Origin: Frankia tisae
Lineage (GTDB): Bacteria; Actinomycetota; Actinomycetes; Frankiales; Frankiaceae
Assembly: GCF_025403405.1 (NCBI RefSeq)
Contig: NZ_JANEZT010000018.1
Span: 1 to 35,213 of the forward strand
Direction of reading: 5' to 3'
Length of the DNA stretch: 35,213 nt
Position 1 is the stretch's first letter. Each line of letters opens with the position of its first letter. Below are positions 20,594 to 35,213 of the stretch, piece by piece. The notes beneath the pieces were generated by a model. It saw only the letters and a program-made list of their open reading frames with translations, did no database searches and was not told the DNA's origin. A program made the position numbers and the translations under genes.

Positions 20594-20853
20594 GATGTGC
20601 GATCCCCCGTCGGCGTCATCGGTGTGTGTTGGGGCGATGCCGCCACGAGTTCTTGTTCGGCACATTCAAAAATGAATTCGTCCACCGGGAGACCTAACCC
20701 GCCGCGTTGCCCGCAGTGCGACCGCCGAGCACGCCGAAGTCTTCTACAACCGGCAGCGACTCCACTCCACCCTCGACTACCACACCCCGGAACATATCGA
20801 GAACCTCTATCAGGCGGGCAAGGCGCCAATGTCAGAGGTGACATGGAGCTGAT
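20594..20853 (+). pseudogene. IS3-family transposase (OrfB) C-terminal relic
   Basis: Three frames together give the integrase-core end of an IS3-type transposase: VGVIGVCWGDAATS, then EFLFGTFKNEFVHRET followed by a stop, then EVFYNRQRLHSTLDYHTPE and LYQAG. In intact IS3 elements these read C-W-D-N-A...F-x-T-L-K-x-E and F-Y-N-x-x-R-x-H-x-x-L-x-x-x-x-P. The catalytic glutamate (FKNE) survives but the gene is split by two frameshifts and a stop, and the upstream two thirds are gone. It marks past insertion at the left border of the catabolic cluster. Confidence 0.85.
20829..20844. promoter_or_regulatory. Short perfect palindrome upstream of TetR
   Basis: ATGTCA (20829-20834) and TGACAT (20839-20844) flank GAGG, at the 3' edge of the IS3 relic and 135 bp before the TetR gene at 20979. 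It shares the 9-mer AGGTGACAT with the operator arm at 17813-17827. It could be a regulator site or chance. Confidence 0.35.
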
Positions 20854-20978
20854 ATAGTCCACTGAAGTCGTGTCCGTGAAACAGGCAGCAGCTCACGTTC
20901 ACATCACAGTCCCGGGTGCCCTGGGCAAGATGTCGGGGTGTAGCATTATCAGGCTGTGGCACGGTAGTGAGGAGAAGT

Positions 20979-21585: not shown

Positions 21586-22356
21586 TCACTCGATATAACG
21601 AGCCGCACGCTGTTCGAGCGTGGCGTGACGGGCTTCGAGCGAGTCGGGGTGCCCGGACAGCTCTCGTGTCAGACCTTGCTCGAAGATGTATCCCTCCTGC
21701 AGGTCCATGGTCTCGATGCCGTTCAACGAGCGCTTCGCCATGCGGATCGAGGCGTTGCTGTGGCGTACGATGCGACGTGCCTGCTCATGGGCCCTCTTGA
21801 TCAGTTCCGTCGGTGGGGCCACGGCGACGATGCCACCGAGTTCCGCCAGGCGACCGGCTTCGATCGGGTCGCCGGTGAGGTACATCCAGCGAACGATCGG
21901 CTCAGGCACCAGGCGGGCGAGATGGCGTGCTCCTCCCATGATTCCAACGCCTACCTCCGGCGTCCCGAATCTGGCGTTCTCCGCGGCGATGACGAAGTCA
22001 CATGACGCGGCTATTGCCAGCCCGGTCCCCAGCGCTACACCGTGGACCGCGCCGATCACCGGAACGGGACACTCCTGGATCGCGAAGAACGCCGCGCGCA
22101 CCTCTGCCATCCGTGCGTCCGAGTTCTCCGGCGTGAGAGTGCCGAACTCGTGCAGATCGTTTCCCGCGCAGAAGTGCTTCCCCTCGCCGGTCAGCACGAT
22201 GGCCTTCACCCCCGGAAGATACTGGTCCGGTCGTGAGAAGAGGGCCTCGAGTTCGCGGTACATCGCCTGGGAGACGGAATTGACCGGTGGGCGGGCTAGC
22301 CACACCGTGCTGAGTGGGCCTTCGGAATCGATACGAAGAAACTCGAATAGGCTCAT
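21586..22356 (-). CDS. Enoyl-CoA hydratase/isomerase family protein (crotonase)
   Basis: A 256-residue crotonase-fold enzyme acting on an acyl-CoA. The oxyanion-hole segment HFCAGNDL (61-68) and GVALGTGLA (106-114) are present. The second catalytic glutamate is kept at 134 (GTPEVGVG), but the first (in GGGxE of true hydratases) is replaced by L113. This suggests an isomerase, hydrolase or lyase reaction rather than simple hydration. The ATG at 22356 follows AGGAG; a TTG at 22374 is an alternative. It is last in an operon after the SnoaL-like gene, with a 148-bp gap. Confidence 0.88.
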   Translation of the reverse strand: MSLFEFLRIDSEGPLSTVWLARPPVNSVSQAMYRELEALFSRPDQYLPGVKAIVLTGEGKHFCAGNDLHEFGTLTPENSDARMAEVRAAFFAIQECPVPVIGAVHGVALGTGLAIAASCDFVIAAENARFGTPEVGVGIMGGARHLARLVPEPIVRWMYLTGDPIEAGRLAELGGIVAVAPPTELIKRAHEQARRIVRHSNASIRMAKRSLNGIETMDLQEGYIFEQGLTRELSGHPDSLEARHATLEQRAARYIE

Positions 22357-22504
22357 GCAAAACTGCTCCTTCAAGCCGTCCAGGGCCGTCCTGAACTCGG
22401 TGGGTCCTGCTGCTGTTCCGGTGGTTCTGCTGCCGGACCTCCAGGTTGTCGAGATGACGCGGCGGTGACGGCGCCTCCCGGCACGTGGCTGTGGGGTGGC
22501 CGAC

Positions 22505-22984
22505 CTATTCCTCCCGAATCCGGGCGGGCCTGAGGAGTGCGAGATTCATCGGTTCGGAGACGAACCAACGCCTGACGATGCGCGTGCGGATCCGCCACTC
22601 GCCGTCGAGACGCAGGTACTGATCCTCGTACGAGGCCGAGACCAGGCTCGGAAGGCCGTCGTGCCCCACGCATATGGCGAATGAATCACTGGAACCCTCG
22701 GCCCGCTCCCCGTCCAGCAGCCGGACGATGTGGTTCGTCGTCCAGTGGTGGGTACTCTGGTAGCTCTGCTGGACGAACGTGATTGCCTGGGACAGCTCCG
22801 AGAGACCGCAGAACCGGCCTCTCCTACTTCCGATGATGTACTCACCTTCAGGGTGCCAGATCGACAGGAACGTCGTCTGGTCCCCTCGATCGATGCCGAC
22901 GCAGTACTTCGCGCCGAGCTCGATGATCTGAGCCCTGCTCAGCAGTTCCTTGACACCGACGGCCCCGTCCCTGCCCGCGCTCAT
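22505..22984 (-). CDS. SnoaL-like / nuclear transport factor 2 fold protein
   Basis: A 159-residue alpha+beta-barrel protein. The N-terminal helices (LLSRAQIIELGAKYCVGIDR) and DxxxFLSIWHPEGEY segment, followed by THHWTTNHIVRL and YEDQYLRLDGEWRI, are typical of the SnoaL_4 / ring-hydroxylating-dioxygenase-beta-like group. Members act as hydratases, isomerases or dehydratases on cyclic substrates. The ATG overlaps the stop of the Old Yellow Enzyme gene as ATGA, so they are translated together. The pairing with an ene-reductase suggests a ring or unsaturated acid substrate; the reaction is unknown. Confidence 0.82.
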   Translation of the reverse strand: MSAGRDGAVGVKELLSRAQIIELGAKYCVGIDRGDQTTFLSIWHPEGEYIIGSRRGRFCGLSELSQAITFVQQSYQSTHHWTTNHIVRLLDGERAEGSSDSFAICVGHDGLPSLVSASYEDQYLRLDGEWRIRTRIVRRWFVSEPMNLALLRPARIREE

Positions 22985-24132
22985 GCTCGTCGTTCCCGCG
23001 GTGTGGTCATGCTGTCCAGTTGCCGCCTTCGTTTCGCGATCCACGACCGGCTCTGCACAGGCAGTAGGGTGAAACGGTCCCGGTCGCTGTACTGGCCCAG
23101 GTCTTCCCGCGCCCGGATCGGCCACGCGGGGTCCACAAGCGCCTCACGGCCGATCGCGACGAGGTCGGCCGCGCCGGTCCGAACGATCTTGTCGGCCTGT
23201 CCGGCGTCAACGATGTGGCCCACGGCCATCGTGCGGATCTCGGCGCGGCGACGGACCTCGGCCGCCCAGTCGACCTGGTAGCCCGGACCGAGGCCGTGGA
23301 CGTAGGCGCCGCCGATTCCGCCGGACGAACAGTCGATCACGTCGACGCCGACGGCCTTCAGCCGACCCGCGAACTCGACGGTCTGCTCCAGGTCGATACC
23401 GTCGTGACCGTTGTCGACGACGGACAGCCGGACGAACAGCGGCCGGTCTTCTGGCCACTGCCCCCGGACCGCCTCGGCGACCAACAGCGGGAATCGCATG
23501 CGGGCGTCGCGGTCGCCGCCGAACTCGTCGTCGCGCGTGTTGCTGATCGGGGACAGGAAGCCGTGCAACAGGTATCCGTGCGCCATGTGCAGCTCCAGGA
23601 CGTCCGCCCCCGCCTCGGCCGCCCGGCACGCCGCCGCGCGCCAGTCCCGCAACTGCTCCTCCAGCTCCGCGGCGGTCAGCGCCCTGGGGCGTTGCCAGCC
23701 CGGCGCGTAGGGCTGATCGGTGACCGAACGGATTTCCCACCGCCCGTCCGTGGGCCGATCGGCCTCAGTCACCCACGGCGGCAACGTGGCGGCCTTGGAG
23801 CCGGCGTGCCCGAGTTGAACACCGAATCGCGCGCCATGAGCATGCGTGAAGTCGGCGATGCGCCGTAGCGCGTCACGCTGGTCATCCCGCCACAGGCCGA
23901 CGTCGCCGTAGGTGAGCCGACCTTCGGGAGAGATCGACGTCGCCTCCGTCATGACCAGCCCGAAACCACCCATCGCGAATCGGCCGAGATGCACCAGGTG
24001 ATAGTCGCTCGCGAGGCCGTCGACTGCGGAGTACTGACACATGGGAGAGACTGCGACGCGATTACGGAAAGTTATTCCTCCCACCGTCAGCTCCTCGAAG
24101 AGCCCACGGGGTGGCTGCTGGGTGTTCACCAC
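22981..24132 (-). CDS. Old Yellow Enzyme family NADH:flavin oxidoreductase (YqjM-like)
   Basis: A 383-residue FMN ene-reductase or dienoyl-type oxidoreductase. YqjM-type marks are visible: C32 and Y34 (SPMCQYSA), H182 and H185 for substrate binding with the proton donor Y187 (LELHMAHGYLLHGF), then SPISNTRDDEFGG and, near the C-terminus, the FMN-phosphate motif AIGREAL. It would reduce an activated C=C using NAD(P)H. It is first in a minus-strand operon with the SnoaL-like and crotonase genes. The GTG start lies after AAGGA. Length exceeds YqjM (338) mainly at the C-terminus (about 40 Arg-rich residues). Confidence 0.92.
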   Translation of the reverse strand: MVNTQQPPRGLFEELTVGGITFRNRVAVSPMCQYSAVDGLASDYHLVHLGRFAMGGFGLVMTEATSISPEGRLTYGDVGLWRDDQRDALRRIADFTHAHGARFGVQLGHAGSKAATLPPWVTEADRPTDGRWEIRSVTDQPYAPGWQRPRALTAAELEEQLRDWRAAACRAAEAGADVLELHMAHGYLLHGFLSPISNTRDDEFGGDRDARMRFPLLVAEAVRGQWPEDRPLFVRLSVVDNGHDGIDLEQTVEFAGRLKAVGVDVIDCSSGGIGGAYVHGLGPGYQVDWAAEVRRRAEIRTMAVGHIVDAGQADKIVRTGAADLVAIGREALVDPAWPIRAREDLGQYSDRDRFTLLPVQSRSWIAKRRRQLDSMTTPRERRA

Positions 24133-24253
24133 GATACCGTCCTTGCCGGTGTGCTCGCCGGGATATCGGCCGTGATACGGGCCGGGCGTCTGTCAAATAA
24201 TTCGGGTCATGCGCGTGGACACGGCTCTTCTCGCCGGAGATGGCCACTGCCGG

Positions 24254-24268
24254 GCGTACGTTTGATAC
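24254..24268. promoter_or_regulatory. Candidate operator (GCGTACGTTTGATAC) in divergent promoter region
   Basis: This 15-mer differs by one base from GCGTACGATTGATAC at 28167-28181, inside the perfect palindrome upstream of the racemase-family gene. It lies in the 169-bp divergent region between the Old Yellow Enzyme and thioesterase genes. Only one half-site is well conserved; the left arm is degenerate. Confidence 0.55.
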
Positions 24269-24301
24269 GATTCTCTTCTCTCGCGAAGGAAGGACTTCGA
24301 G

Positions 24302-24925
24302 GTGATCCCTGACGACCCGGGCGAATCCGGCCGGCAAAGCTACACGGCCCTCGCCGCGGAGATCATCCGCCTGCTCGATGCTCTCTCGATGACGCGGCCG
24401 GATCCGACCGTTCTCGACGGCGGCCTCAGGGTCGTGCGCGATCTGGCCACCCGTATCGAGGCTCTCCCCATTACCCCCGAGAATCCCCAGGTTCCCGCGC
24501 ACTCGCCCAAGAGCCCGCGGTTCCAGCCGGCCGAGCGGGGCCTGGTGCCGCCGGTTTCCATCGATCTCGAGGATGACAAACAGCTCGTCGGTCGCGTGCG
24601 CTTCAGCCCCCATTTTGCGGGGACGGCCGCCGTACACGGGGGCTCCCTTGGACTGCTCTTCGATGACCTCCTGGGTAGGCTCGCCAATTCGGGACTGGTC
24701 GGGAGGGTCGCCCGCACGGCCTATCTTCACATCGACTACCGCCGGTTGGTCCCGGTGGCGACCGAGCTTTCCTGCCGAGCATGGATCGCGGCCGTCGACG
24801 GTCGGAAGCGGACCGTCCGGGGCGTGCTCTCCTACGCCGGAGAGGTCGTCACGGAGGCCGAAGGGCTGTGGATCGAACCGCGGCCGGGCAACGATGGTGA
24901 TCGTCGGCTTCATGATTCCGCCTGA
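24302..24925 (+). CDS. Hotdog-fold acyl-CoA thioesterase (PaaI-like)
   Basis: A 207-residue protein. The C-terminal 120 residues are a hotdog domain: a strand with LVGRVRFSPHFAG, then VHGGSLGLLFDDLLGRLAN, which is the helix and active-site turn of PaaI/YbgC-type thioesterases, then AYLHIDYRRLVPV. It would release CoA from an acyl-CoA to prevent CoA sequestration or finish a pathway. The first 80 residues are helical and of unknown role. The GTG start follows GAAGGAAGGA. It ends 6 bp from the convergent acyl-CoA dehydrogenase and diverges from the Old Yellow Enzyme operon. Confidence 0.85.
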   Translation: MIPDDPGESGRQSYTALAAEIIRLLDALSMTRPDPTVLDGGLRVVRDLATRIEALPITPENPQVPAHSPKSPRFQPAERGLVPPVSIDLEDDKQLVGRVRFSPHFAGTAAVHGGSLGLLFDDLLGRLANSGLVGRVARTAYLHIDYRRLVPVATELSCRAWIAAVDGRKRTVRGVLSYAGEVVTEAEGLWIEPRPGNDGDRRLHDSA

Positions 24926-24931
24926 CTTGCG

Positions 24932-26122
24932 CTAGCGTGGCCGTGACCATTTGTGAATGTTGTTTCGCTGAATCGCAGAGGATCCGCCGATGATCGGCAT
25001 CAACAGCACGTCGCGCACATATCTCTCCATATCGAAGTCCTTGACGTAGCCATAGGCACCCAGGACCGTCTGCGCGTCGAGCACGATCTGCTTGCACGTC
25101 TCCGTCACGAACAACTTGGCCATGGACGTTTCGACGCCACAGCGGGCGCCGCGGTTCGCCAGCTCCGCGGCATCGTCCAGTACGAGGCGGGACGCGTACA
25201 GCTTGACTCGCATGTCCGCGAGTGAGTGCGCTATGGACTGGTGCCTGACGATCGGGACGCCGAACTGTCGGCGTTCCTGAGCATAGGCATGCGCATCCGC
25301 GCAGGCGGCCGCGCCGAGGCCCAAAGCCATGGCGGCCACCTCGAGTTTCTCGATGTCGAGGCCGGCGCCGGTGATGAGCGACCAGCCACGGTTCCAGGCT
25401 TCCTCCCCTCCCATCAGGTTCGCGAGGGGCACCCGGACGTCATCGAAGACGACATCGGTCGTCCCGCTGCCCTTGAGGCCCATCGCGTCAATCGTCGTGA
25501 TCGTCACGCCCTCGGCCCGGCTGGGCACGAGAACCGTGCTGAGGTTGTGGTAATGCGGAGCGTCGGGATCGGAGTTGGCCAGCGTGTAGATGTAGTCACT
25601 GATCTCCGCCCCGGTGCAGAACCGCTTGGACCCGTTGACGACCAGCTCGTCCCCGTCCCGACGTACGGTGGTCCGCACATCCGCCAGGTCGGCGCCCACG
25701 TCCGGTTCGGTCCAGCCGTAGGCGAACAGCAGGCGGCCCTGGGCGATCTCGGGAAGCCAGCGCTTCTTCTGCTCCTCGCTGGCGCATTCCACCACGGTCA
25801 TTCCCGCGTAACAGCTCGCCATGATGTACGGGATCGCGACCGCCGAGCTGCGTCTGGAAAGCTCCTCGATCACCATGAGCGTGGCGTGGATGTCGCGACC
25901 CATTCCGCCGTACTCCTCGGGGATGGCCAGCCCGGCCACTCCGATCCCCACGAGCTTGTCGAAGACGTCGCGAGGGAACTCGTTCGCCTTGTCCCACTCG
26001 GCGGCGGCGGTGCGCGGCATCTGCTCCTCGATGAAACGGCGCAGAACCGTACGGAGCTCGAGCGCGTCATCGGACAGGTACCGGTTGGTGGTTTCCAGCG
26101 ACATGGTTCCCGACAACGTCAT
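24932..26122 (-). CDS. Acyl-CoA dehydrogenase (second of a pair)
   Basis: A 396-residue FAD-dependent acyl-CoA dehydrogenase that introduces an alpha-beta double bond. The three-domain fold is seen: N-terminal helices, FAYGWTEPDVGAD beta domain near 133-145, then C-terminal helices with ERRQFGVPIVRHQSIA. The common catalytic glutamate in the YEGTSxIQ motif is replaced (PIIGGSSAIQRNN), but GLDIEKLEVAA places E258 where isovaleryl-CoA dehydrogenase has its base. The ATG overlaps the stop of the preceding acyl-CoA dehydrogenase as ATGA, so the two are co-translated and may form a heteromer. Confidence 0.93.
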   Translation of the reverse strand: MTLSGTMSLETTNRYLSDDALELRTVLRRFIEEQMPRTAAAEWDKANEFPRDVFDKLVGIGVAGLAIPEEYGGMGRDIHATLMVIEELSRRSSAVAIPYIMASCYAGMTVVECASEEQKKRWLPEIAQGRLLFAYGWTEPDVGADLADVRTTVRRDGDELVVNGSKRFCTGAEISDYIYTLANSDPDAPHYHNLSTVLVPSRAEGVTITTIDAMGLKGSGTTDVVFDDVRVPLANLMGGEEAWNRGWSLITGAGLDIEKLEVAAMALGLGAAACADAHAYAQERRQFGVPIVRHQSIAHSLADMRVKLYASRLVLDDAAELANRGARCGVETSMAKLFVTETCKQIVLDAQTVLGAYGYVKDFDMERYVRDVLLMPIIGGSSAIQRNNIHKWSRPR

Positions 26123-27300
26123 ACCCTGCCCTTGCCCGCGGCCTTGTAGGTCTCCCGCGCGATGATCAGCTTCTGGATCTCGCTGGTCCCGGCACCGATC
26201 TCGTGGTGCTTCGCGTCGCGGTAGAGCCGTGCCGCGGGGTATTCCTCCATCAGGCCGTAGCCCCCCAGGATCTGGACGACCTCGCGCGAGGCCTCGACCG
26301 CCACCTCCGAGCTGTAGAGCTTGAGGACCGCCGCCGCCCGCGTCACTTCTTCGCCGCGTTCGATGGCACGGATGAGGTGGTAGAACATCACCCGCGACAT
26401 CTCCACACCAGTTGCCATCCGAGCAATCTTGTCCTGCGTCAGCTGGAAGGTCGACAGCGGCTGGCCGAAGACCTCCCGCTCGCTGGAGTACTCGACGGCG
26501 AGGTCAAGACAGGCCTGGGTGATACCCGTGTTGGACGCACCCTCGAAGACCCTTTCCAGGTCCAGCCCCTCGAGCATGTAGTAGAAACCGTTGTCGACTT
26601 CCCCGAGGACCTGGTCCGCCGAGACCCTGACGGAGTCGAAGAACACCTCCGCGGTCGGTGAGCTCCGCAGGGACAGCTTGTCGAAAGGCTTGCCGACGGT
26701 GAGGCCCGGCGTATCCCGATCGACGAGAAAGCAGGTACCGCCGCGGGCCCGCCGGTCCTCGCCGCTGGTCCTGGCGAAGACCATGAACATCGTCGCGATG
26801 GGCGCGTTCGTGATGAAGGTCTTCGAGCCGTCGATGACCCAGTCGTCGCCCACCCTGCGCGCGGTCGTCCGGGGGCTCAGGGCGTTGGAGCCGCCATGTG
26901 ACTCGGTCAGGCAGATCGACATGGACGCCTCGCCGGCGATCAGCGGGACGAGGTACTTCTTCTTCTGTTCCTCGGTGCCACGCTTGATGAGGTGACGGGC
27001 GATCAGACTGAGATTCACGAACAAGGTCGCGTCGAGGCCGGCGTCGACGCGGGCGGTCTCCTCGGCCACGATCGCGCGAGTCATGAGACTGCCCCCGCCG
27101 CCTCCGTACTCCTCCGGGGCGAAGCAGCCGAGAATTCCCTGCTCACCCATGAGCCTGAGCAGCTCCTGCGGTGGCCGACCCGCACGCTCCATCTCCGCGA
27201 CGATGGGATGCACGTGCTTGTTCATGAACTGCTGTACGACCTGTTGAAACTCGCGCTCCTCCTCGGTGAGGATGGACAGCGCCACGGAGCTGATGGACAT
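26119..27300 (-). CDS. Acyl-CoA dehydrogenase (first of a pair)
   Basis: A 393-residue acyl-CoA dehydrogenase. Domain marks: ICLTESHGGSNA at 129-140, SKTFITNAPIA near 159, and the C-terminal GGYGLMEEYPAARLYRDAK followed by EIGAGTSEIQ. As in isovaleryl-CoA dehydrogenase, the latter lacks the usual catalytic Glu, and GLDLER (245-250) supplies it at E249. The ATG at 27300 follows GAAGGGA. It lies 64 bp after the racemase-family gene and is fused by an ATGA overlap with the second dehydrogenase, fitting a heteromeric complex acting on one branched or cyclic acyl-CoA. Confidence 0.93.
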   Translation of the reverse strand: MSISSVALSILTEEEREFQQVVQQFMNKHVHPIVAEMERAGRPPQELLRLMGEQGILGCFAPEEYGGGGGSLMTRAIVAEETARVDAGLDATLFVNLSLIARHLIKRGTEEQKKKYLVPLIAGEASMSICLTESHGGSNALSPRTTARRVGDDWVIDGSKTFITNAPIATMFMVFARTSGEDRRARGGTCFLVDRDTPGLTVGKPFDKLSLRSSPTAEVFFDSVRVSADQVLGEVDNGFYYMLEGLDLERVFEGASNTGITQACLDLAVEYSSEREVFGQPLSTFQLTQDKIARMATGVEMSRVMFYHLIRAIERGEEVTRAAAVLKLYSSEVAVEASREVVQILGGYGLMEEYPAARLYRDAKHHEIGAGTSEIQKLIIARETYKAAGKGRV

Positions 27301-27364
27301 GTGGGATCCCTTCAACGCTGGTGACCGCGGGCTCATGACCGGACGGACCCGGAAACCGGCGGAC

Positions 27365-28144
27365 TCAGAGCCCGAACAGTCCTCGGACCCGGTCGGTGTC
27401 CGCGTCGGCAAGACGCTGGGTGTAGCCGGCACGGCTGGTGGGCGGCAGGCCGCCCTTGGTGGTGAGGTCGACGCGCATCTCGAGGGTCTTGAGCCCCACG
27501 CTCAAGGTTTCGAACACCGGGATGTCACCCTTGAGCCTGGTCAGTCCCGCCGCGGCAGTCATGGTGCTGAGCCCGGCGCTGCCGATCACGATCGCGCCGG
27601 CGCCGCGGTCGACAAGCCTGTTCGCCTGACGCTCGACGTCGGCGACGACGAAGTCGGGATTCGCGAAACCTTCGGTGAAGGCCTGCGCGGATGGGGTCTC
27701 AATACGCTCGACTCCCACGCAGCGATCGAGAAGCCCGTTCTTGGCGATCAGACTGTGGCACGTCTCGGCCCAGGCGACGTCCTCGACCGTCACGACACCG
27801 AAGCGGTAGGCGTAGGAGCTGGCGAGGTGCAGCGTGGCCTCCCAGGGCCCGACGACCGGGATGTCGACCAGGGTCCGGGCCTCGGTGATACCGGGATCAC
27901 CGCTGCACGCGACCATCGCGCCGTCCGCCCCCTGCCGGCCCGCGTCCACGATGTTGTGGATCACGTCCACCGAGTTCAGCAGGTACGGGTATCCGAACAC
28001 CGTGTCCGACGCGCGCTTCAGTTTCGCCCAGCGGTGTGTGATCTTCGTGTCCTCACGCTTCACCTTGTTGAACACCTTGGTGATCATCTCCGTGTAGGGC
28101 TCGGATCCACGCTGGGCGTTGATGTGCACGACGGCCAGTTCCAC
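27365..28144 (-). CDS. Asp/Glu/hydantoin racemase superfamily protein
   Basis: A 259-residue protein of the two-domain aspartate/glutamate racemase fold, which includes hydantoin racemases, maleate isomerases and arylmalonate decarboxylases. The first catalytic Cys is kept at 80 (MVACSGDPG). The second, expected in a GCTG-like turn, is a serine here (S189, VIGSAGLS). A one-cysteine protein cannot do ordinary two-base racemisation and could be an isomerase or a decarboxylase, as arylmalonate decarboxylase also has a single Cys. The GTG start follows GGGGAG. It is first in the operon with the two acyl-CoA dehydrogenases, controlled by the promoter at 28178-28206. Confidence 0.85.
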   Translation of the reverse strand: MELAVVHINAQRGSEPYTEMITKVFNKVKREDTKITHRWAKLKRASDTVFGYPYLLNSVDVIHNIVDAGRQGADGAMVACSGDPGITEARTLVDIPVVGPWEATLHLASSYAYRFGVVTVEDVAWAETCHSLIAKNGLLDRCVGVERIETPSAQAFTEGFANPDFVVADVERQANRLVDRGAGAIVIGSAGLSTMTAAAGLTRLKGDIPVFETLSVGLKTLEMRVDLTTKGGLPPTSRAGYTQRLADADTDRVRGLFGL

Positions 28145-28161
28145 TGTGTCTCCCCATTTTA

Positions 28162-28206
28162 ATCAAGCGTACGATTGATACTAGGACTCCGTTTACCCAC
28201 CGTCAA
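28162..28206 (-). promoter_or_regulatory. Promoter and operator of the racemase-acyl-CoA dehydrogenase operon
   Basis: On the minus strand TTGACG (28201-28206) and TAGTAT (28178-28183) are 17 bp apart. Immediately downstream and overlapping the -10 box by two bases lies an 18-bp inverted repeat (28162-28179) with half-sites TCAATCG and CGCTTGA around TA. A repressor there would block the start of transcription. Confidence 0.78.
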
Positions 28207-28219
28207 CGGATCTGTCGGA

Positions 28220-28969
28220 TTATCTGAGCGCGCCGACGGACAGGCCGCCGCACACAGTCAGAGTCTGGCCAGTCACATAGCTGGCGTCGCGTGACGCCAG
28301 AAAGGCGATGCAGGCCGCGATCTCCTCCGGTCTGCCCGGCCGCCTGGCCGGTATCTGAGCGATCTGGTTGCGCTGAAACTCACCTGGCGTGCTCAGGAAC
28401 ATGCCGGTGGCGACCACGCCCGGCTCGACGCAGTTCACCGTGACTCCGTGCTTCGCGAGCTCGATCGCGGCCGATCGTGTCAGTGCCTCGATACCTCCCT
28501 TGGCAGCGCCGTAACTGACCCCGGCGACCACGCCCCTGGCGGCGACGGAGCTGGTGTTGATGATCCGTCCGTACCCGCGCTCCTTCATCGCGGGGGCGAA
28601 CGCGCGCACCGTGTGCAGCGTCGCCACCAGGTGCGTGCCGAGAACCAGCTCGAAGTCCGCGTCGGTGATCTTTGCCAGCACCGCGTTGCGGACCGCGCCC
28701 GCGAGGTTGACCAGGACACTCGGTGCCCCGAACCGCTCGGCCACACCTGCGGCCAGGAGGTCGACGGCGGAGGAGGAGGTCACGTCGCACACATGGCTCG
28801 ACGCGCTGAGCCCGTCCGCCACCAGGCCGGCCGCCACCCGCTCCGCGGGATCCGTGGCGATGTCCACGACGCACACGTGGGCGCCTCCCCGCGCGAGCCG
28901 GAGCGACGTGGCGGCGCCCAGGCCGCCGCCGCCCCCGGTGACGACCGCTACCTCGCGTTGCTCCTCCAC
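28220..28969 (-). CDS. SDR-family oxidoreductase (FabG-like)
   Basis: A 249-residue classical short-chain dehydrogenase/reductase, probably oxidising a 3-hydroxyacyl-CoA to a ketone with NAD+. The cofactor loop TGGGGGLG is at 11-18, D36 follows the second strand (NAD preference), NLAG is at 88-91, and the catalytic S140, Y153 and K157 (SYGAAK) are present. The GTG at 28969 follows GAGGGGAG and gives the normal length; earlier GTG/ATG starts (29008, 28999) overlap the upstream tandem repeat and stop. It ends the operon that begins at 34884. Confidence 0.9.
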   Translation of the reverse strand: MEEQREVAVVTGGGGGLGAATSLRLARGGAHVCVVDIATDPAERVAAGLVADGLSASSHVCDVTSSSAVDLLAAGVAERFGAPSVLVNLAGAVRNAVLAKITDADFELVLGTHLVATLHTVRAFAPAMKERGYGRIINTSSVAARGVVAGVSYGAAKGGIEALTRSAAIELAKHGVTVNCVEPGVVATGMFLSTPGEFQRNQIAQIPARRPGRPEEIAACIAFLASRDASYVTGQTLTVCGGLSVGALR

Positions 28970-28998
28970 GGTTCTCCCCTCGCCGTCACTGGTCACCA

Positions 28999-29030
28999 TC
29001 GCCGGCACTCAACGTCGCCGGCACTCAACG
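28999..29030. repeat. 16-bp tandem duplication at a gene junction
   Basis: TCGCCGGCACTCAACG occurs twice head to tail (28999-29014, 29015-29030), spanning the stop codon (29025-29027) of the enoyl-CoA hydratase gene and the beginning of the next gene's upstream region. Confidence 0.9.
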
Positions 29031-29801
29031 TCGCTGGTAGTGCGGCGCGCGACCCTCCAGGAAGGCCGTGATGCCCTCACGGTGGTCCTCGGTGTCGAAC
29101 AGCGCGGCGAAGATCTCCACCTCGCGCCGGTGCCCTTCGTCGAGCGAATGCCGCAGTCGGTAGTTGGCCGAGCGCTTCGCGGCCTCCACCGCGAGCGGTC
29201 CAGCCCTGTTGATCCGCTCGGCGACGGCCAGGGCAGCCTCCAACGAGCCCCCCGTGGGGCAGACCTGATCCACAAGACCGATCGCGTGCGCCTCCCCGGC
29301 CGGCAGCCGGTCGCCGGTGAACAGCAGCCGTTTGGCGGTGCCGACGGGAAGCGCGGAGAACAGCATCTGCGTCCCACCGGCCCCGGGAATCAGACCGAGC
29401 TGCACCTCGGTGACGCCGATCTTCGCCTGTTCTTCGGCGATCGCGATGTCGCAGGAGAGCAGCAGCTCAAGACCACCGCCGAGCGCATGTCCGTTGATCG
29501 CCGCTATGACCGGAACCCGAAGGTCGAACAGCACCTGCTGCATCCCCTGGACCCGCAACGCCATCGCGGCGGCGCCCTCGCGGTCGATCTCGGTGAAGTA
29601 CCGGATGTCACCACCGGCGACGAAGCACCGGCCGGTACCGGTCAGGATCATGCTCCGCAGGTCGAGGTCCTGCTCGATCGCCCGAGCCGCGTGTTCGATC
29701 TCGGCCGCCACATCGGGATGCAGGGCGTTCACCGGAGGGTTGTCGATGGACACGACACCCGTCGCGCCGATGTGTTTGATCGTCACGAAGTCATAGGACA
29801 T
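29025..29801 (-). CDS. Enoyl-CoA hydratase
   Basis: A 258-residue crotonase. Unlike the crotonase at 21586-22356, it has both glutamates of a genuine hydratase: E112 (GGGLELLL) and E132 (GVTEVQLG), and the oxyanion segment CFVAGGDIRY (59-68). It should add water to the alpha-beta double bond formed by the acyl-CoA dehydrogenases to give a 3-hydroxyacyl-CoA. It lies between two SDR genes; gaps are 108 bp upstream and 55 bp downstream, each containing a short tandem duplication. Confidence 0.93.
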   Translation of the reverse strand: MSYDFVTIKHIGATGVVSIDNPPVNALHPDVAAEIEHAARAIEQDLDLRSMILTGTGRCFVAGGDIRYFTEIDREGAAAMALRVQGMQQVLFDLRVPVIAAINGHALGGGLELLLSCDIAIAEEQAKIGVTEVQLGLIPGAGGTQMLFSALPVGTAKRLLFTGDRLPAGEAHAIGLVDQVCPTGGSLEAALAVAERINRAGPLAVEAAKRSANYRLRHSLDEGHRREVEIFAALFDTEDHREGITAFLEGRAPHYQRR

Positions 29802-29840
29802 ACCGCGGCAGATCCCCTTCCTTGTTCTCGACCGGCCCTT

Positions 29841-29876
29841 GTTCTCGATGCGGCGTCGGTTCTCGATGCGGCGTCG
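29841..29876. repeat. 18-bp perfect tandem duplication between genes
   Basis: GTTCTCGATGCGGCGTCG occurs twice head to tail (29841-29858, 29859-29876) in the 108-bp gap between the SDR and enoyl-CoA hydratase genes. A degenerate third unit, TTGTTCTCGACCGG, precedes it. Confidence 0.9.
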
Positions 29877-29909
29877 CCGCGCGTGGCCTGGTGTCAGACG
29901 GCATGGCGG

Positions 29910-30665
29910 TCAGACGATCCGGCGGGTGACGGCCAGGGGCAGGTGGCGCAGGCCCCAGGCGAACGCGGTCCACGGCCACCGCGGCACATACAGGTTCCTG
30001 CCTCCGCGCTCGATGGCATCGACCAACGCGCGGTGGCCCACCTCGGCGTCGACCAGGAGCCGATGACGGCGGCCGGTGCGGGCGTGCATGTCCGAGTCGA
30101 TGTAGCCCGGCCGGATGGTGGTGACGGAGATGGGCACACCCCTTGCCTCGACATCGCTACGGATGCCCTCGGCCAGATGCGCCAGGGCGACTTTGGACGC
30201 GGCGTACACGTTCATCGGGCCGGGCATGCCGCGGGCGGCGACCACCGAGGAGACGACGACGAGGTGGCCGTGTCCCTGCGCGTAGAACACGCGCATGGCC
30301 GCCTCACACTGCGCGATTCCACCGACGAAGTTCGTCAGGGCGGTGTCCCGGTTTCCGCTGAATCGGCCCGCCCCGACTCGTGATCCCTTGCCCAGCCCCG
30401 CGTTCACGACAACCCGGTCCAGGCGTCCGGTCGCCGCGACCGCCTGCTCGAACGCCTCGAAGACGCGGTCGTGGTCCGTGACGTCCATACGCAGCGGGAC
30501 CACCCGGCGACCGGGATGGCGGGCCTCGATCTCGGCCTGGAGCGCCTCGAGACGCTCCAGGCGGCGGGCGGTGACCACCAGATCCGCGCCGCGTGAGGCG
30601 AAGACCCGCGCCATACCCTCGCCTATGCCCGCACTCGCACCGGTGATCATCACCGTCTCGTTCAT
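29910..30665 (-). CDS. SDR-family oxidoreductase
   Basis: A 251-residue classical SDR. The cofactor loop TGASAGIG is at 8-15, with R34-R35 after the second strand, which favours NADP. NAG is at 88-90 and the catalytic S140, Y154 and K158 (YAASK) are present. The C-terminal RWPWTAFAWGLRHLP stretch is hydrophobic and could touch a membrane or a lipid. The ATG at 30665 shares one base with the stop of the DUF35 gene (TGATG), so translation is coupled. It probably interconverts a hydroxyl and a ketone on a bulky substrate. Confidence 0.9.
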   Translation of the reverse strand: MNETVMITGASAGIGEGMARVFASRGADLVVTARRLERLEALQAEIEARHPGRRVVPLRMDVTDHDRVFEAFEQAVAATGRLDRVVVNAGLGKGSRVGAGRFSGNRDTALTNFVGGIAQCEAAMRVFYAQGHGHLVVVSSVVAARGMPGPMNVYAASKVALAHLAEGIRSDVEARGVPISVTTIRPGYIDSDMHARTGRRHRLLVDAEVGHRALVDAIERGGRNLYVPRWPWTAFAWGLRHLPLAVTRRIV

Positions 30666-31078
30666 CACCGGCCCCGTACCCGGAACACGGGGAGCACGCG
30701 ATCACCACGGCGCGCGAAGTCGAGCTGGACCTCAAGGCCGATCTCGACCCTGTCAGGATCGACGTCGACGATGTTCGTCATCATCGTCGGCCCTTCGGCG
30801 AGCCTGACGAGAGCCACCGTGTACGGCGTCAGATCGGCGAAGGCGCCGCTGCCACGGTGGACGACGCTGAAGGTCTCGACGACGGCCAGACCGGACGGTC
30901 GCCTCCACGTGAGCTTCCGGGACCAGCAATGTGAACAGAGATGACGCGGGTAGTACTGCCACTTCTCGCAGTCGCCGCAGTGCTGTAACCAGAAGGCGCT
31001 GCGACCGCACTCGCGCCAGAAGAACGCGGCCGGGTCCTCCAGCGGATCGACGTCCACTTCCACGGGGGTTGTTGTCAT
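30665..31078 (-). CDS. Zn-ribbon / OB-fold (DUF35) protein, partner of the thiolase-like protein
   Basis: A 137-residue protein. The N-terminal rubredoxin-like zinc ribbon has C34, C37, C48 and C51 (HCGDC, LCSHC), and an OB-fold follows (RPSGLAVVETFSVVHRG, then YTVALVRL). Such DUF35 proteins pair with thiolase-like enzymes: ChsH2-DUF35 with the Ltp2 aldolase, and the OB protein with acyl-CoA acetyltransferases. The ATG overlaps the stop of the thiolase-like gene as ATGA, strongly indicating a complex. Together they probably perform retro-aldol or thiolytic C-C cleavage. Confidence 0.92.
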   Translation of the reverse strand: MTTTPVEVDVDPLEDPAAFFWRECGRSAFWLQHCGDCEKWQYYPRHLCSHCWSRKLTWRRPSGLAVVETFSVVHRGSGAFADLTPYTVALVRLAEGPTMMTNIVDVDPDRVEIGLEVQLDFARRGDRVLPVFRVRGR

Positions 31079-32244
31079 CGGACTCTTCCCAGGACCAGGA
31101 AACCGTTGTTGGCCAACCAGCTGCCTTGACCGTGCACGAGGCCGAGCTCGGCGTCCTGGACCTGCCTGGCGCCGGCCTCCCCACGCAGCTGGACGACCGC
31201 CTCGACGACGGAGTCCAGAGCCGCGCCCATGCCGGGATGCCGGAATGCCAGCGTGCCGCCGTGCGTGTTCACCGGGAGTCGCCCGCCAAGGTCGACCGCC
31301 CCGCTCTCGACGAACGCGCCGCCCTCGCCCTTCTCGCAGAAACCGATCTCCTCGAGGAGGATCAGGGGGACGATGGTGGCCGGATCGTAGAGCTCGACGA
31401 AGTCGAGGTCGTCGAGTGTGATCCCGGCCTGGGTGACAGCCTGGTCCGCGGCGACCCGGATGTGGGCGAACCGCGCCAGGCTTGGCGCCTGCGTCAGGCT
31501 CATGAAACCGCATGATTCGCCGTAGCCCCTGACGGCGACGGCGCGGTTACCCGTGGGCCTCCTGGTGACGACGAAGCCCTGTGCCCCGCCGGTCGATATC
31601 AGGGCCACCATCGACCGGGTCAGCGGGCTGCTGATGACGACATCGTCCAGAACCGACCGGACGGTCAGCTCGCCGGAGACCTCCGTGTCGGGATTCAGCA
31701 GGCCGTGTCGGCGGATGGTGACCGCGAGCGAGGCCAGCTGTTCCAGCGTGGTGCCGTAGTCGTGGATGTGCCGTGCGGCCATCAGGGCGAACGCGGTGGG
31801 GATGAGGGGACCGAACGGCCGCTCATAGGTCTGATCGAAACTCTTCATGTAGAGCTCGATCGCCCCCTCGAGCCCGAGGGTCGTCGCGAAGTTGTCGGCT
31901 GACAGCACCAGCACGTTGCTGGCCAGGCCGGCGTTCACGGCCGATCGGGCCATGCCGATCACGTCCGTCGCGGGGCGACCGCCGTAGGGCGCCATCGCAG
32001 CGTAGGCCGGTCCGATGCCGAGGTACTCGGCAAGCTCGGCGGGGTTGCACGCGAACGGCTGGGGGATGGACGACGACAGGACCAGCCCGTCGATGGCGTG
32101 CGGCTCCAGTCCCGCGTCGGTCACGGCGTCCGCGGCGGCGTCCGCCAGAAGCTTCAGGTAGGGCGGAGCAGGCTTTCCGCGGCCCACGATCCGCTGGGAG
32201 ACTCCGGAGATGTAGACGGGGTTCATCGTTGGCTCAGCCGACAC
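31075..32244 (-). CDS. Thiolase-like lipid-transfer protein (Ltp2-type aldolase candidate)
   Basis: A 389-residue thiolase-superfamily protein of the SCP-x/Ltp group. The conserved nucleophile Cys in the first half is missing (YGGRPATDVIGMA), and the second Cys near the C-terminus is absent too (HGQGSWLANNG). The GGxxAxxHPxGxG-type histidine motif is kept as GGTLAFRHPGMGA with H336, and ELYDPATIVPLILLEE is the EVHDCF-like segment. This is how Ltp2, a retro-aldolase, differs from true thiolases. GTG at 32244 overlaps the LLM gene by 11 bp; ATG at 32226 is an alternative. Confidence 0.88.
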   Translation of the reverse strand: MSAEPTMNPVYISGVSQRIVGRGKPAPPYLKLLADAAADAVTDAGLEPHAIDGLVLSSSIPQPFACNPAELAEYLGIGPAYAAMAPYGGRPATDVIGMARSAVNAGLASNVLVLSADNFATTLGLEGAIELYMKSFDQTYERPFGPLIPTAFALMAARHIHDYGTTLEQLASLAVTIRRHGLLNPDTEVSGELTVRSVLDDVVISSPLTRSMVALISTGGAQGFVVTRRPTGNRAVAVRGYGESCGFMSLTQAPSLARFAHIRVAADQAVTQAGITLDDLDFVELYDPATIVPLILLEEIGFCEKGEGGAFVESGAVDLGGRLPVNTHGGTLAFRHPGMGAALDSVVEAVVQLRGEAGARQVQDAELGLVHGQGSWLANNGFLVLGRVR

Positions 32245-33169
32245 GAGCTGGCCTTTCGTCTATGTGCAACCAGTCGCTCAGGACGGTGGTCAAAGATCGC
32301 CATCCCTCGAGCGGTGGGTGATCGCGGTCCGCGGCGATCACATTGAGCGCCACATGGTCGGCGCCGCGGGCCAGATGCGCCCGGACACGCTCGTAGATCG
32401 CGTCCGCACGCCACACGAACAGCTCGTCAATCAACCGGTCACTGCCGCGGCCCGAGAAGTCGTCGGCGGTGAACCCCAGCCGCTCGAAGTGCCGCATGTA
32501 GTTGGGCAGTCTCAGGTAGAAATCAAGGTAACGACGGCCGATTTCGCGTGCCTCGGCGTCGTGGTCAGCCCAGATCACCACCTGCGTCACCCCCAGGAAG
32601 GCGTCCGGGCCCACATCGCGGCGGGCCGCCTCGGTGTGCGCGAGTGTCGCGTTGTAGGTGAGTGCGCCGCCGGTGCGGCAGCCGGCCAGCTGGAGCATCT
32701 TCGGACCAAGTGCGCCGATGAGGGTGAGTGCGGAATCAGGCGTCTGCTGACGAGCGGATGCGTCGCGCATGTGCTGCAGGTACTCGGTCATCGCGGTGAG
32801 CGGGGCACGGAACTCGTGCCCCCGCCTGTCGGCGAAGGACGCATGGCTGACGCCCAGGCCCAACGCGTAGCGGTCACCGTGGACCTCCCAGAGCACTCGC
32901 CGCCCGCTCACCAGCGCGTGGGCGTCGCGGGCATACATGCTCGCGACGCCTGTGCCGATACGAAGTCGTGTGGTGCCGGCGAGGTACTGGGCGGCTGCGG
33001 TCAGGGCCTCGCGTCCCGCGTCACCCGGCGTCCACAAGGTACCGAACCCCAGGCCCTCCACCTCGCGGGCCAGCTCGACGGCCCGGGGCATGGGCAGCGG
33101 ATCCAGCGTGGCGGTCCAGATCCCGACGGGACCGGCGTCGAAGCCGTGACCGCGGCTGCGTGTCCTCAT
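32234..33169 (-). CDS. LLM-class F420-dependent oxidoreductase
   Basis: A 311-residue luciferase-like alpha/beta-barrel flavin or F420-dependent oxidoreductase. N-terminal GIWTATLDPLP and FGTLWTPGDAGREAL, then LRIGTGVASMYARDAHAL, and YALGLGVSHASF match the mycobacterial/actinomycete LLM group. These enzymes oxidise alcohols or add oxygen to carbonyl substrates. The ATG lies 5 bp after the ligase stop and its end overlaps the thiolase-like gene. In this operon it could handle an alcohol or ketone on the substrate; the cofactor is inferred. Confidence 0.88.
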   Translation of the reverse strand: MRTRSRGHGFDAGPVGIWTATLDPLPMPRAVELAREVEGLGFGTLWTPGDAGREALTAAAQYLAGTTRLRIGTGVASMYARDAHALVSGRRVLWEVHGDRYALGLGVSHASFADRRGHEFRAPLTAMTEYLQHMRDASARQQTPDSALTLIGALGPKMLQLAGCRTGGALTYNATLAHTEAARRDVGPDAFLGVTQVVIWADHDAEAREIGRRYLDFYLRLPNYMRHFERLGFTADDFSGRGSDRLIDELFVWRADAIYERVRAHLARGADHVALNVIAADRDHPPLEGWRSLTTVLSDWLHIDERPARVG

Positions 33170-33174
33170 CCTGA

Positions 33175-34884
33175 CTACTCGGATCCGACGGTGCCGGACT
33201 CGGCAAGAGACTCGCGCAGCACGAACTTCTGCACCTTTCCGGAGGGGGTACGCGGCAGGGACTTCACAACGGCCACCTTCTGCGGCCAGAACGGCTTCGC
33301 CATGCCGCCCTTTTCGAGGTAGGTCACCACATCCGCCAGCGTGGGCTCCCTGCCGTCGGCCACGATGACCGCGCAGACCCGTTCACCAAGCCGCTCGTCG
33401 GGATAGGAGACCACCGCGACGTCGTGAATGTTCGGATGCGTGTACAGGACGTTCTCGATCTCGACGGCGGAGATGTTCTGACCGCCACGAATAATGATGT
33501 CCTTGCTACGCCCCTCGATACGGATGGCGCCGTCGTCGGTCACCCGGCCAAGATCTCCCGTGTCGTACCAGCCGTCCGAGGTGAAGGCATCGGCGGTCAG
33601 GTCGTTGTGGCCGAAGTATCCCGCGAAGATGCCCGGGCCACGGACCTGTAAATTCCCGATCACGCCCGGTGGAACGAAATTCTGGTCGGCGTCGACCACC
33701 CGGGTCGTCTGCCACGGAACCGGGAACCCGTCGCTGGAGTTGAGGGTTTCGACGCTCGCGCCGAGCTTGTGGATGCTGGCGATCCCCGTCTCCGAACAGC
33801 CCCACAGCGGAACGAGGCTGGTCGAGAACTCCTCGTGCATGGCAACGGCCACGCCGGGAGGAATCGAGGCGCCGCCGCAGGCGAAGGCGCGCATCGTGTC
33901 GCCCGGGACCTGCGCTCGGTTCTTCCGGGCCTCGAGCATGTCGAGCGCGAAGGCCGTGGCGGACAGCGTCCAGGTGATGCCTTCGGTCCCCATCATGTCG
34001 AGCAGTCCGTCGACGTCCCATCGATCCTGGTAGACCACCTTCTGGCCCATGGACAGCGGAACCAGCATGCCATGAATGAACCCGGTCAGATGGCCCAGTG
34101 TCGACGCCATGAACGCCACGTCGTCCGCTGTGAGGGACAGCGCGTCGGTGATGACGTTCCGGTATCCCGACCACGCGGTGTTGTAGGTGTGCAACGCGCC
34201 CTTCGGAGTACCCGTGGTACCGGAGGTGTACACCAGCATCGCGATGTCATCGGCACCGGGACGCAACGGTTCGAGCGTCTCCGCGAGGCCGGGAGCGAGC
34301 TCTCGCCTGACGTCGACCAGCGAGCGCACGAAATCCATCTCAGGATCGATCGTGTCGTCCGCGTCGAAGAAGTAGAGTTGCTGGAGGGTGTCGATCTCGG
34401 ACTGGAGCCGCTGCGCCGCCGCCGCGAAGTCATAGCCGCGGAACCGCTGCGGCGCGAGGTACACCTTGCTCCCGGAATCTTCCAGCATGAACCGCAGTTC
34501 ACGCTCGCGGTAGATGATCGGAATCGGATTCGGTACGGCCCCTATGCGCATGGTTGCCAGGGCGATGGCCGGACCTTCCCAACCGTTGGCGGCCTGGATC
34601 GACACCACGTCTGCGGGCTTGACGCCGATGGCGAGAAGACCACCGGCGAGCCGATCGACAAGAGCGCCGAGCTGACCATAGGTCACCGTTTCGGGTAAGG
34701 AAACCCCCCTGCGGTACGAGACGACGGCCGCCTTCTGCGACAACCGCCGAACGTTGTCCAGGAAGTCGTCCAGGAACGTACGGTCACGCCACTGTCCGCT
34801 ATCGCGGAATCGCTCCACGTCGGCCGGATCGAACGCGCGGATCCAGGACGCCAGCCGTGTCCCTTTATGCTCGCGTAAGTTCAT
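33175..34884 (-). CDS. Acyl-CoA synthetase (AMP-forming)
   Basis: A 569-residue ANL-superfamily ligase that activates a carboxylic acid to its CoA ester using ATP. The phosphate loop YTSGTTGTPKG is at 219-229, YDTGDLG at 440-446, RSKDIIIRGGQNIS just after, and the catalytic lysine K550 in PSGKVQK. The N-terminal style (WRDRTFLDDFLDNVRRLSQK) recalls cyclohexanecarboxylate- or dihydroxybenzoate-type ligases more than long-chain FadD, but the substrate is not certain. The ATG at 34884 follows AAGGAG; a frame beginning at 34911 is an extension. It is first in the minus operon and sets the entry step of the pathway. Confidence 0.93.
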   Translation of the reverse strand: MNLREHKGTRLASWIRAFDPADVERFRDSGQWRDRTFLDDFLDNVRRLSQKAAVVSYRRGVSLPETVTYGQLGALVDRLAGGLLAIGVKPADVVSIQAANGWEGPAIALATMRIGAVPNPIPIIYRERELRFMLEDSGSKVYLAPQRFRGYDFAAAAQRLQSEIDTLQQLYFFDADDTIDPEMDFVRSLVDVRRELAPGLAETLEPLRPGADDIAMLVYTSGTTGTPKGALHTYNTAWSGYRNVITDALSLTADDVAFMASTLGHLTGFIHGMLVPLSMGQKVVYQDRWDVDGLLDMMGTEGITWTLSATAFALDMLEARKNRAQVPGDTMRAFACGGASIPPGVAVAMHEEFSTSLVPLWGCSETGIASIHKLGASVETLNSSDGFPVPWQTTRVVDADQNFVPPGVIGNLQVRGPGIFAGYFGHNDLTADAFTSDGWYDTGDLGRVTDDGAIRIEGRSKDIIIRGGQNISAVEIENVLYTHPNIHDVAVVSYPDERLGERVCAVIVADGREPTLADVVTYLEKGGMAKPFWPQKVAVVKSLPRTPSGKVQKFVLRESLAESGTVGSE

Positions 34885-35213
34885 CTCGCTGACTCCTTGT
34901 TCGCACGTCACGGCCCCACGGCGCGCTCTTCGTCGTTGCCAGGGTGCTGGTCATCGAAATGACGCACAAGCCGGCTGGTGCGCGTGGCCGGCCTCGTCGG
35001 TGGGTGCGTAGCGACCCCGGGTGAGGTCGTGGGTCCACCGCCACCGCCACCGCGGGCTTCCTGCTCCCGGGTGGCATGGGTCAAGATTCGAGCAAGCGAC
35101 CGGTTCTTGTCAATCGTTCGATCGCTTGATTCTTTGGAAGCGGCACGACCCGCCCGACCAGCGCCCGCCGAGGAGCGAGCGCCGCCGCCGGGGCTGGGCG
35201 GCCCGCGGGGTGG
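34885..35213. promoter_or_regulatory. Control region upstream of the acyl-CoA synthetase operon, with a 20-bp inverted repeat
   Basis: No gene is supported in this 329-bp end of the window. At 35110-35129, TCAATCG and CGCTTGA flank a 6-base centre, the same half-sites as in the 28162-28179 operator but with a wider spacer. On the minus strand TTGACA (35108-35113) overlaps the left half-site and is a plausible -35; no good -10 follows. The remainder is Gly/Arg-type GC-rich DNA with no feature seen. Confidence 0.6.

Follow-up and report, generated by a model that had tools for sequence, protein, structure and literature searches.

The window analysed here, 35,213 nucleotides of Frankia tisae (contig NZ_JANEZT010000018.1, positions 1 to 35,213 of the forward strand; contig C99 of genome G000, an assembly of 882 contigs and 7.07 Mb), ends in an acyl-CoA catabolic cluster that is real, conserved and larger than first described. 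An earlier note, made from the window alone, had described such a cluster with a thiolase-like/DUF35 pair of the aldolase kind, and this description held; every gene family that it had listed was located by open reading frames (ORFs) and family scans at the coordinates given below. The core is a minus-strand run from 34911 down to 24932, in which the genes overlap or stand up to ~110 bases apart. The first gene of this main transcription unit encodes an AMP-dependent acyl-CoA ligase (LIG, 33175..34911; PF00501/PF13193) and is followed by the genes for an accessory F420-type LLM oxidoreductase (32234..33169; TIGR03620, 260.8 bits, over the cut-off of 219.8), a Cys-less thiolase-like protein and putative retro-aldolase (THI, 31075..32244; PF22691, with YDPA at residue 286 and His336 in RHPG), its DUF35/ChsH2-type OB-fold partner (30665..31078; PF01796 and PF12172), a short-chain dehydrogenase (SDR1, 29910..30668; NF006099, 335 bits, over the cut-off of 253), an enoyl-CoA hydratase (ECH1, 29025..29801; PF00378, aligned with 3moy), a FabG-like short-chain dehydrogenase (SDR2, 28220..29008; PF13561, with NCBIfam FabG models below cut-off), an Asp/Glu-racemase-family protein (RAC, 27365..28144; PF01177; PDB 3qvj at 2.5e-18), and two acyl-CoA dehydrogenases, ACAD1 (ORF 26119..27432, likely start ~27306; PF00441/02771/02770; best PDB match isovaleryl-CoA dehydrogenase 4kto) and ACAD2 (24932..26122; PF00441 and others; best PDB match 4iv6, FadE3).

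Beyond ACAD2, a PaaI/4HBT-type thioesterase is encoded on the opposite strand (24302..24925, +; PF03061, 21.6 bits with a cut-off of 20.6), followed by an OYE-family ene-reductase with an HxAH pair (22981..24132, -; PF00724; 7o0t at 4e-100), a LinA-like SnoaL_4 protein (ORF 22505..23125, likely start ~22984, -; PF13577; LinA 3s5c at 3.4e-8), a crotonase (ECH2, 21586..22374, -; PF00378) that reads Gly-Thr-Gly-Leu-Ala where ECH1 reads Gly-Gly-Gly-Leu-Glu, and a TetR-family regulator (20916..21575, +; PF17932 and PF00440). An antisense ORF of 283 amino acids (24062-24913, -) was dismissed, being without a Pfam match and having the thioesterase gene on the other strand. Most of the cluster enzymes are ordinary; the new points are the aldolase-like pair with its YDPA motif, a racemase-like protein with one catalytic Cys, and an operator-like motif shared across genera. 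No description of the cluster was found in the open-licence PMC literature, as judged by title and start of abstract, and the excerpt of PMC8951365 that was available held nothing on it.

Gene content, the conserved block, the shared motif and the residue patterns were computed over nine clusters (six Frankia, Sciscionella marina and two Rhodococcus). LIG, THI, DUF35, SDR1, ECH1, SDR2, RAC, ACAD1, OYE, SnoaL_4 and TetR were present in 9/9 at an identity of at least 45%, the TetR relative at 59-96% in each of the eight other clusters. ACAD2 was found in 8/9, with the ninth copy on contig C117 of Frankia G009; the LLM gene in 3/9 (G000, F. torreyi and Rhodococcus sp. ZPP); ECH2 in 5/9, all five copies with the Gly-Thr-Gly-Leu-Ala motif; and the thioesterase in 6/9, some of the LLM, ECH2 and thioesterase misses lying outside the fetched stretches. 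The order SDR1-ECH1-SDR2-RAC-ACAD1-ACAD2 was kept in eight clusters and split over two contigs in G009, with an additional crotonase gene between ACAD1 and ACAD2 in Rhodococcus. THI-DUF35 followed the ligase in 7/9 and occupied the other end of the cluster in both Rhodococcus. In G000 and F. torreyi OYE-SnoaL_4-TetR was on the side of ACAD2; in the other seven clusters it was on that of the ligase, with an inversion in G009. Because the gene set is constant while these two groups change position, the content of the cluster is fixed and its blocks move; and because the core block recurs across genera, the cluster is not due to chance. The comparison of gene order in relatives, which the earlier note had put forward as a test, thus gave a conserved core order rather than a scattered one.

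The note had called the cluster complete; in fact contig C99 stops at 35213 and the cluster runs on into contig C37. By blastn, the end of C99 (35210) matched position 38530 of F. torreyi contig C79 and the start of C37 matched position 38537, and since these positions adjoin, C99 and C37 very probably abut. The genes on C37 encode a LuxR/MalT-type regulator (309-2627), an NDMA-type alcohol dehydrogenase, an aldehyde dehydrogenase and a cytochrome P450, the P450 ortholog of the window's genome being located at C37:5552-6883 (96% identity). An NDMA-type alcohol dehydrogenase gene lay near the cluster in 9/9, and P450 and aldehyde dehydrogenase genes in 8/9, the ninth cluster (G009) stopping at a contig edge; in Rhodococcus the three genes stood up to ~10 kb from the cluster, and the P450 module was accompanied by genes for ferredoxin and ferredoxin reductase in Sciscionella and Rhodococcus. 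The alcohol dehydrogenase of F. torreyi, on which the scan was made, scored 489.7 bits against the NDMA-dependent model TIGR03989 (cut-off, 440), and that of the window's genome is 99% identical to it. From the P450/alcohol dehydrogenase/aldehyde dehydrogenase set near the cluster, the substrate is probably a hydrocarbon or an alcohol that is oxidised to an acid before CoA activation. The PDB neighbours of two P450 copies were headed by CypX, and no hint of a substrate came from P450 neighbours in two Streptomyces plasmids. According to a table excerpted from PMC10520049, the alder peptide AgLTP24 lowers an aldehyde dehydrogenase (FRAAL0200, log2 -1.87) and a 'cytochrome P450 reductase' (FRAAL0201, log2 -1.67); from their order and annotation, these may be the aldehyde dehydrogenase and the P450 of the F. 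alni cluster.

Orthologs of THI (76-100% identity, own genome included) were found in 6 of 146 relatives, all of the same genus, with other matches at 39% or below. RAC was found in 6/13 Frankia genomes (94% identity in the close relative F. torreyi CpI1), in one of 396 genomes drawn across the phylum, namely the own genome, and in one of 18 genomes of the genus group of Rhodococcus sp. SMB37. A species-wide pattern scan returned three loci (F. torreyi, Sciscionella marina and Rhodococcus sp. SMB37), which is a lower bound, since more divergent Frankia escaped it. The gene set is also carried by plasmid pRZP2 of Rhodococcus sp. ZPP, a propane oxidiser according to the excerpt of PMC11283641, a trait by which the cluster is not explained. 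The hosts span Frankiales, Pseudonocardiales and Mycobacteriales. In a concatenation of the cluster proteins (11 genes, 3127 columns, 7 genomes), G000 was 75.4% identical to Sciscionella and 73.3% to Frankia G006; in the midpoint-rooted tree Sciscionella grouped with G006 and G009 at a support of 91/96, which is under the program's mark for strong support; and in the single-gene control, COX1, G000 was 94% identical to G006 and 64-68% to Sciscionella. Horizontal transfer is the simplest reading of this spread. A short, weak integrase-like remnant (20733-20849, +; rve_3, 16.8 bits, below cut-off) adjoins the cluster on its TetR side.

The best PDB match of THI was 4u4e, followed by 9myr (2.1e-41), the complex of Sal with its DUF35 partner Shy, and 6ok1 (2.9e-29), which is read as Ltp2 on the strength of its fitting residues 294 and 344. 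Among characterised structures Sal, not Ltp2, is nearest to THI. The active residues, as given in an excerpt of PMC12329534, are Tyr294 of YDHF and Tyr344 in Ltp2, and Tyr302 and Cys304 of YDCY in Sal. In all nine clusters the nucleophile stretch of THI reads YGGRP, so that the nucleophilic Cys of canonical thiolases is absent, and the motif reads YDPA, with the Tyr kept. THI resembles the Sal-Shy bile-acid aldolase of Comamonas testosteroni in pairing a thiolase-like retro-aldolase with a DUF35 partner and in the motif Tyr, but Pro stands where Sal needs Cys304, and the zinc finger of the cluster DUF35 is of the Cys4 form (Cys-x2-Cys-x10-Cys-x2-Cys in 9/9), whereas that of Shy is Cys3His1. 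With the Ltp2-ChsH2(DUF35) pair of actinobacteria it shares the lack of a nucleophilic Cys, a C4 DUF35 partner, the Tyr of YDxx and an NTHGG stretch, but YDHF is replaced by YDPA, and His336 aligns pairwise to chain position 344 of 6ok1, the place of Tyr344. Furthermore, the ChsH2-type DUF35 is fused to a MaoC hydratase, whereas the cluster partner (~138 amino acids) consists of zinc ribbon and OB fold only. Of the earlier label 'Ltp2-type', the absent Cys and the DUF35 zinc motif thus remain, while the motif, the unfused partner and the closer match to Sal speak against it. Because YDPA replaces both YDHF and YDCY, THI is filed, on its residues, as neither Ltp2 nor Sal, although it may work like Ltp2 despite lacking the Ltp2 motif.

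The broad family of PF22691/PRK06158-like proteins shares the Tyr and His336 with THI. Distant homologs outside the cluster (33-39% identity to THI) read YD[AS]F in 11/12 and YDCF in 1/12, as against YDPA in the cluster; all 12 kept the motif Tyr and the His at 336 (present in all 21 aligned rows) and likewise had no nucleophilic Cys. As judged from this alignment, loss of the motif His or Cys is a general trait of the wide family, and the Pro-Ala is all that sets the cluster proteins apart. The distant homologs, which carry thiolase annotations, are a broad set of candidate aldolases. In the window's genome the PF22691 thiolase C-terminal domain was matched 12 times, so that SCP2-thiolase-like proteins are numerous there; contig C244 of this genome (8000-27900) holds a second thiolase-like/DUF35/acyl-CoA dehydrogenase/crotonase set at 30-39% identity to the cluster, and Frankia G003 holds a set similar to it. 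A structure prediction of THI from a four-row alignment (mean predicted local distance difference test score (pLDDT), 38.4) was set aside.

The kinship of the THI-DUF35 pair with the steroid aldolases Sal and Ltp2 raises steroid or sterol side-chain degradation, in which the ligase, the paired acyl-CoA dehydrogenases, the hydratase and the aldolase would clip a side chain and the ring genes would lie elsewhere. The best model for ECH1 was EchA19 (220.5 bits, below the cut-off of 400), and in F. alni FRAAL3502 putatively encodes a 3-ketosteroid 9alpha-monooxygenase (excerpt of PMC9956245). However, HsaA, the only ring gene tested, was over cut-off in 0/13 Frankia genomes, with no known steroid degrader among the controls to serve as a positive one, which agrees with the earlier statement that ring-degradation genes are lacking; LIG and the acyl-CoA dehydrogenases are nearest to other families; and the motif is YDPA, with the DUF35 protein standing alone and no MaoC hydratase recognised in the cluster. 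A steroid pathway is accordingly considered quite improbable.

RAC resembled hydantoin and allantoin racemases (PF01177) in the PDB search and shares with them the first catalytic Cys (Cys80, in AC[ST]GDPG), but where these racemases have a second Cys, RAC has Ser (Ser189, in GSAGLS) and stands in an acyl-CoA catabolic setting. Both patterns were found in 9/9 clusters and again in 9/9 rows of an alignment that included the copy from the Rhodococcus qingshengii plasmid pLP337 and omitted G009. This pLP337 cluster, which also has an aldehyde dehydrogenase gene, has relatives of RAC (56%), ECH1 (66%), SDR2 (57%), ACAD1 (73%), the canonical thiolase (55%) and the NDMA-type alcohol dehydrogenase (48%) as well as operator-like sites; it differs in having a branched-chain-type ABC transporter, and no THI, DUF35 or P450 was found in it. 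Among phage records, RAC matches occurred in three, all below 60% identity. A structure prediction of RAC from a four-row alignment (mean pLDDT, 45.6) was set aside, and a fold search with this low-confidence model, which placed allantoin racemases on top, was given no weight.

In ACAD1, GLDLER aligns with GLDYER of isovaleryl-CoA dehydrogenase; LDLER was kept in 9/9 clusters, and its Glu is presumably the catalytic base. The HxAH pair of the ene-reductase was likewise kept in 9/9, and beside this enzyme the SnoaL_4 protein may have an eliminating role. In both Rhodococcus, Sciscionella and Frankia G009 a canonical thiolase gene belonged to the cluster or adjoined it (next to RAC in G009); a relative of this thiolase was present at 68-72% in 12/13 Frankia genomes and at 46% in the remaining one, and in the window's genome it sits away from the cluster.

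The family nearest to LIG in NCBIfam was TIGR03208, cyclohexanecarboxylate-CoA ligase (489.1 bits, below the cut-off of 792.3), SDR2 matched the BadH model, and the acyl-CoA dehydrogenases matched models for cyclohexane-carbonyl-CoA. These matches would suit an aerobic cyclohexanecarboxylate-type (Ali/Bad-like) route, in which a cyclic acid is activated, unsaturated, hydrated, oxidised and then opened by a hydrolase or thiolase, but none of the models passed its equivalog cut-off, and the P450/alcohol dehydrogenase/aldehyde dehydrogenase module, OYE, SnoaL_4 and THI-DUF35 are not known to be part of this route, which is regarded as an unlikely explanation. Aryl-alkanoic acids of the ibuprofen or phenylpropanoid kind were considered as substrates because of the ene-reductase, which matched best, below cut-off, to part of the bifunctional salicylyl-CoA 5-hydroxylase/oxidoreductase model, and because of THI-DUF35, which would detach acetyl-CoA or propionyl-CoA from a ring, aromatic or dearomatised; in ibuprofen degradation, too, a thiolase-like protein has a DUF35 partner. 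Against it, no ring-hydroxylating or ring-cleaving dioxygenase was recognised among the scanned cluster proteins or in the annotation of the ZPP stretch, which includes a PDR/VanB-type oxidoreductase, and the ring oxygenase near RAC in pLP337 belongs to the cluster without THI; the chance that the cluster serves such acids appears small.

A palindrome was seen to be shared by upstream regions of the window's genome, and its first form had one site in the window, read on both strands, where 0.03 matches were expected. The form ATCRANCGNNCGNTYGAT occurs exactly at 28162..28179, upstream of the RAC gene, and was exact in 9/9 clusters, 15-23 bp before RAC. Before LIG it was found within 2 mismatches in 9/9 (in the window with 1 mismatch, 35113..35130, ~200 bp upstream of the ligase ORF). 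In a 250-bp test, the best match before OYE had at most 3 mismatches in 7/7 loci; in the window the best match by script (24362, 2 mismatches) falls inside the thioesterase gene, and a weaker site (24249..24266, 3 mismatches) lies between the thioesterase and ene-reductase genes. No site within 3 mismatches was found in this test before THI, DUF35, SDR1 or ECH1 (9 loci each), before SDR2, ACAD1, ACAD2 or TetR (8 loci each) or before ECH2 (2 loci); 9.6% of 3000 random 260-bp windows from the same loci, true sites included, reached that level. A further site lies at C37:82, before the LuxR gene, and in pLP337 sites precede the ligase/thiolase and alcohol dehydrogenase genes. Sites within 1 mismatch numbered 7 in G000 and 6-14 across 13 Frankia genomes, and 0-2 per genome for a reversed control pattern. 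The motif was first spotted by eye in G000 and then generalised with the relatives, which makes the counts in these genomes partly circular; pLP337 played no part in its definition. TetR probably represses through these sites, and the gene set is probably switched as one unit. The 'one candidate regulator' of the earlier note does not hold, since a LuxR/MalT-type regulator follows on C37, although one operator-like motif ties several units together. This shared motif has a bearing on, but does not decide, whether the three operons are co-induced, the other test put forward in the note.

We consider it somewhat more probable than its contrary that the cluster is a horizontally spread regulon for a branched or alicyclic compound, probably an isoprenoid, which is oxidised at a methyl group to an acid and then dismantled as a CoA thioester. 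We infer the reactions, their order, the substrate class and the regulation from gene content and residue patterns, as follows. Briefly, the P450 would hydroxylate the methyl group, and the NDMA-type alcohol dehydrogenase and the aldehyde dehydrogenase would carry it to the carboxylic acid, of which LIG would make the CoA thioester. The acyl-CoA would be desaturated by ACAD1 and ACAD2 and hydrated by ECH1, and SDR2 with the canonical thiolase would take off one unit. THI-DUF35 could then perform a retro-aldol cleavage of a beta-hydroxyacyl-CoA, with acetyl-CoA or propionyl-CoA as one product and a ketone or an aldehyde as the other; a carbonyl intermediate would be dehydrated and reduced by SnoaL_4 and OYE, the thioesterase would release CoA, and RAC would probably invert a stereocentre that otherwise blocks the dehydrogenases. 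The methyl-oxidising front end, the ligase whose nearest family acts on an alicyclic acid, the branched-type dehydrogenases and the aldolase-like pair would suit an isoprenoid that ends in an isopropyl or isoprenyl group, this end sitting on a ring or adjoining a tertiary centre. Of the earlier proposal, a terpenoid or cyclic carboxylic acid, the terpenoid is still a guess; a cyclic acid as the growth substrate has become less likely because the P450/alcohol dehydrogenase/aldehyde dehydrogenase module was found, and the acid is more likely an intermediate of the pathway.

Several points weigh against this proposal of isoprenoid degradation by one regulon. The best model of the P450 was a cyclodipeptide-associated P450, below cut-off and with no tie to terpenoids. 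The palindrome scans revealed no operator-like site before the P450 unit on C37. Each of seven Frankia genomes without the cluster has 6-10 sites within 1 mismatch, so the motif alone is not specific, and the genome-wide count was dropped as proof of specificity. YDPA lacks the His or Cys used by Ltp2 and Sal, and 11 of the 12 distant homologs have Ala or Ser at that place, so that the whole group may have another activity. The scan of cluster proteins turned up no recognisable ring-cleavage gene. Finally, RAC, ECH1, SDR2, ACAD1 and the canonical thiolase occur together in pLP337, where neither THI/DUF35 nor P450 was found, and so the steps served by the RAC module and by the retro-aldolase may be separable.

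A biosynthetic cluster, in which P450, OYE, SnoaL_4 and Cys-less thiolase-like enzymes would tailor a natural product, was also considered, since P450, SnoaL, OYE and thiolases with a DUF35 partner are found in biosynthesis as well, and PhlC was among the PDB matches of THI. However, no polyketide synthase, nonribosomal peptide synthetase or terpene-synthase domain was found among the scanned cluster and flanking proteins, bar a squalene-hopene cyclase 12 kb off, and in Rhodococcus the cluster has a beta-oxidation set with a canonical thiolase and an MFS gene; a biosynthetic role is held to be highly improbable.

The degradative proposal can be carried further, tentatively, to an undescribed pathway for a plant isoprenoid in nodule-forming Frankia that moves as a unit between actinobacterial orders. 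In it THI would be a further thiolase-fold retro-aldolase, with the motif Tyr as base and His336 as acid (a pair that the wide, uncharacterised family shares), and the one-Cys RAC an epimerase of branched acyl intermediates, like CaiB-type AMACR; in this extended form the proposal is possible rather than probable. If true, the pathway would be transferable and its substrate could be found by induction tests, with the predicted regulator and its sites as a direct reporter, and there would be a new active-site type among thiolase-fold aldolases and a role for a one-Cys racemase-family protein. The Frankia setting also raises the question of whether terpenoids of the host serve nodule symbionts as food or are detoxified by them.

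Elsewhere in the window, the squalene-hopene cyclase gene (7220-9406, -; PF13243/PF13249), ~12 kb from the cluster, showed no sign of a link to it. A histidine kinase gene (14386-16790, -; PF07730/PF02518) is followed by a response-regulator-like ORF.

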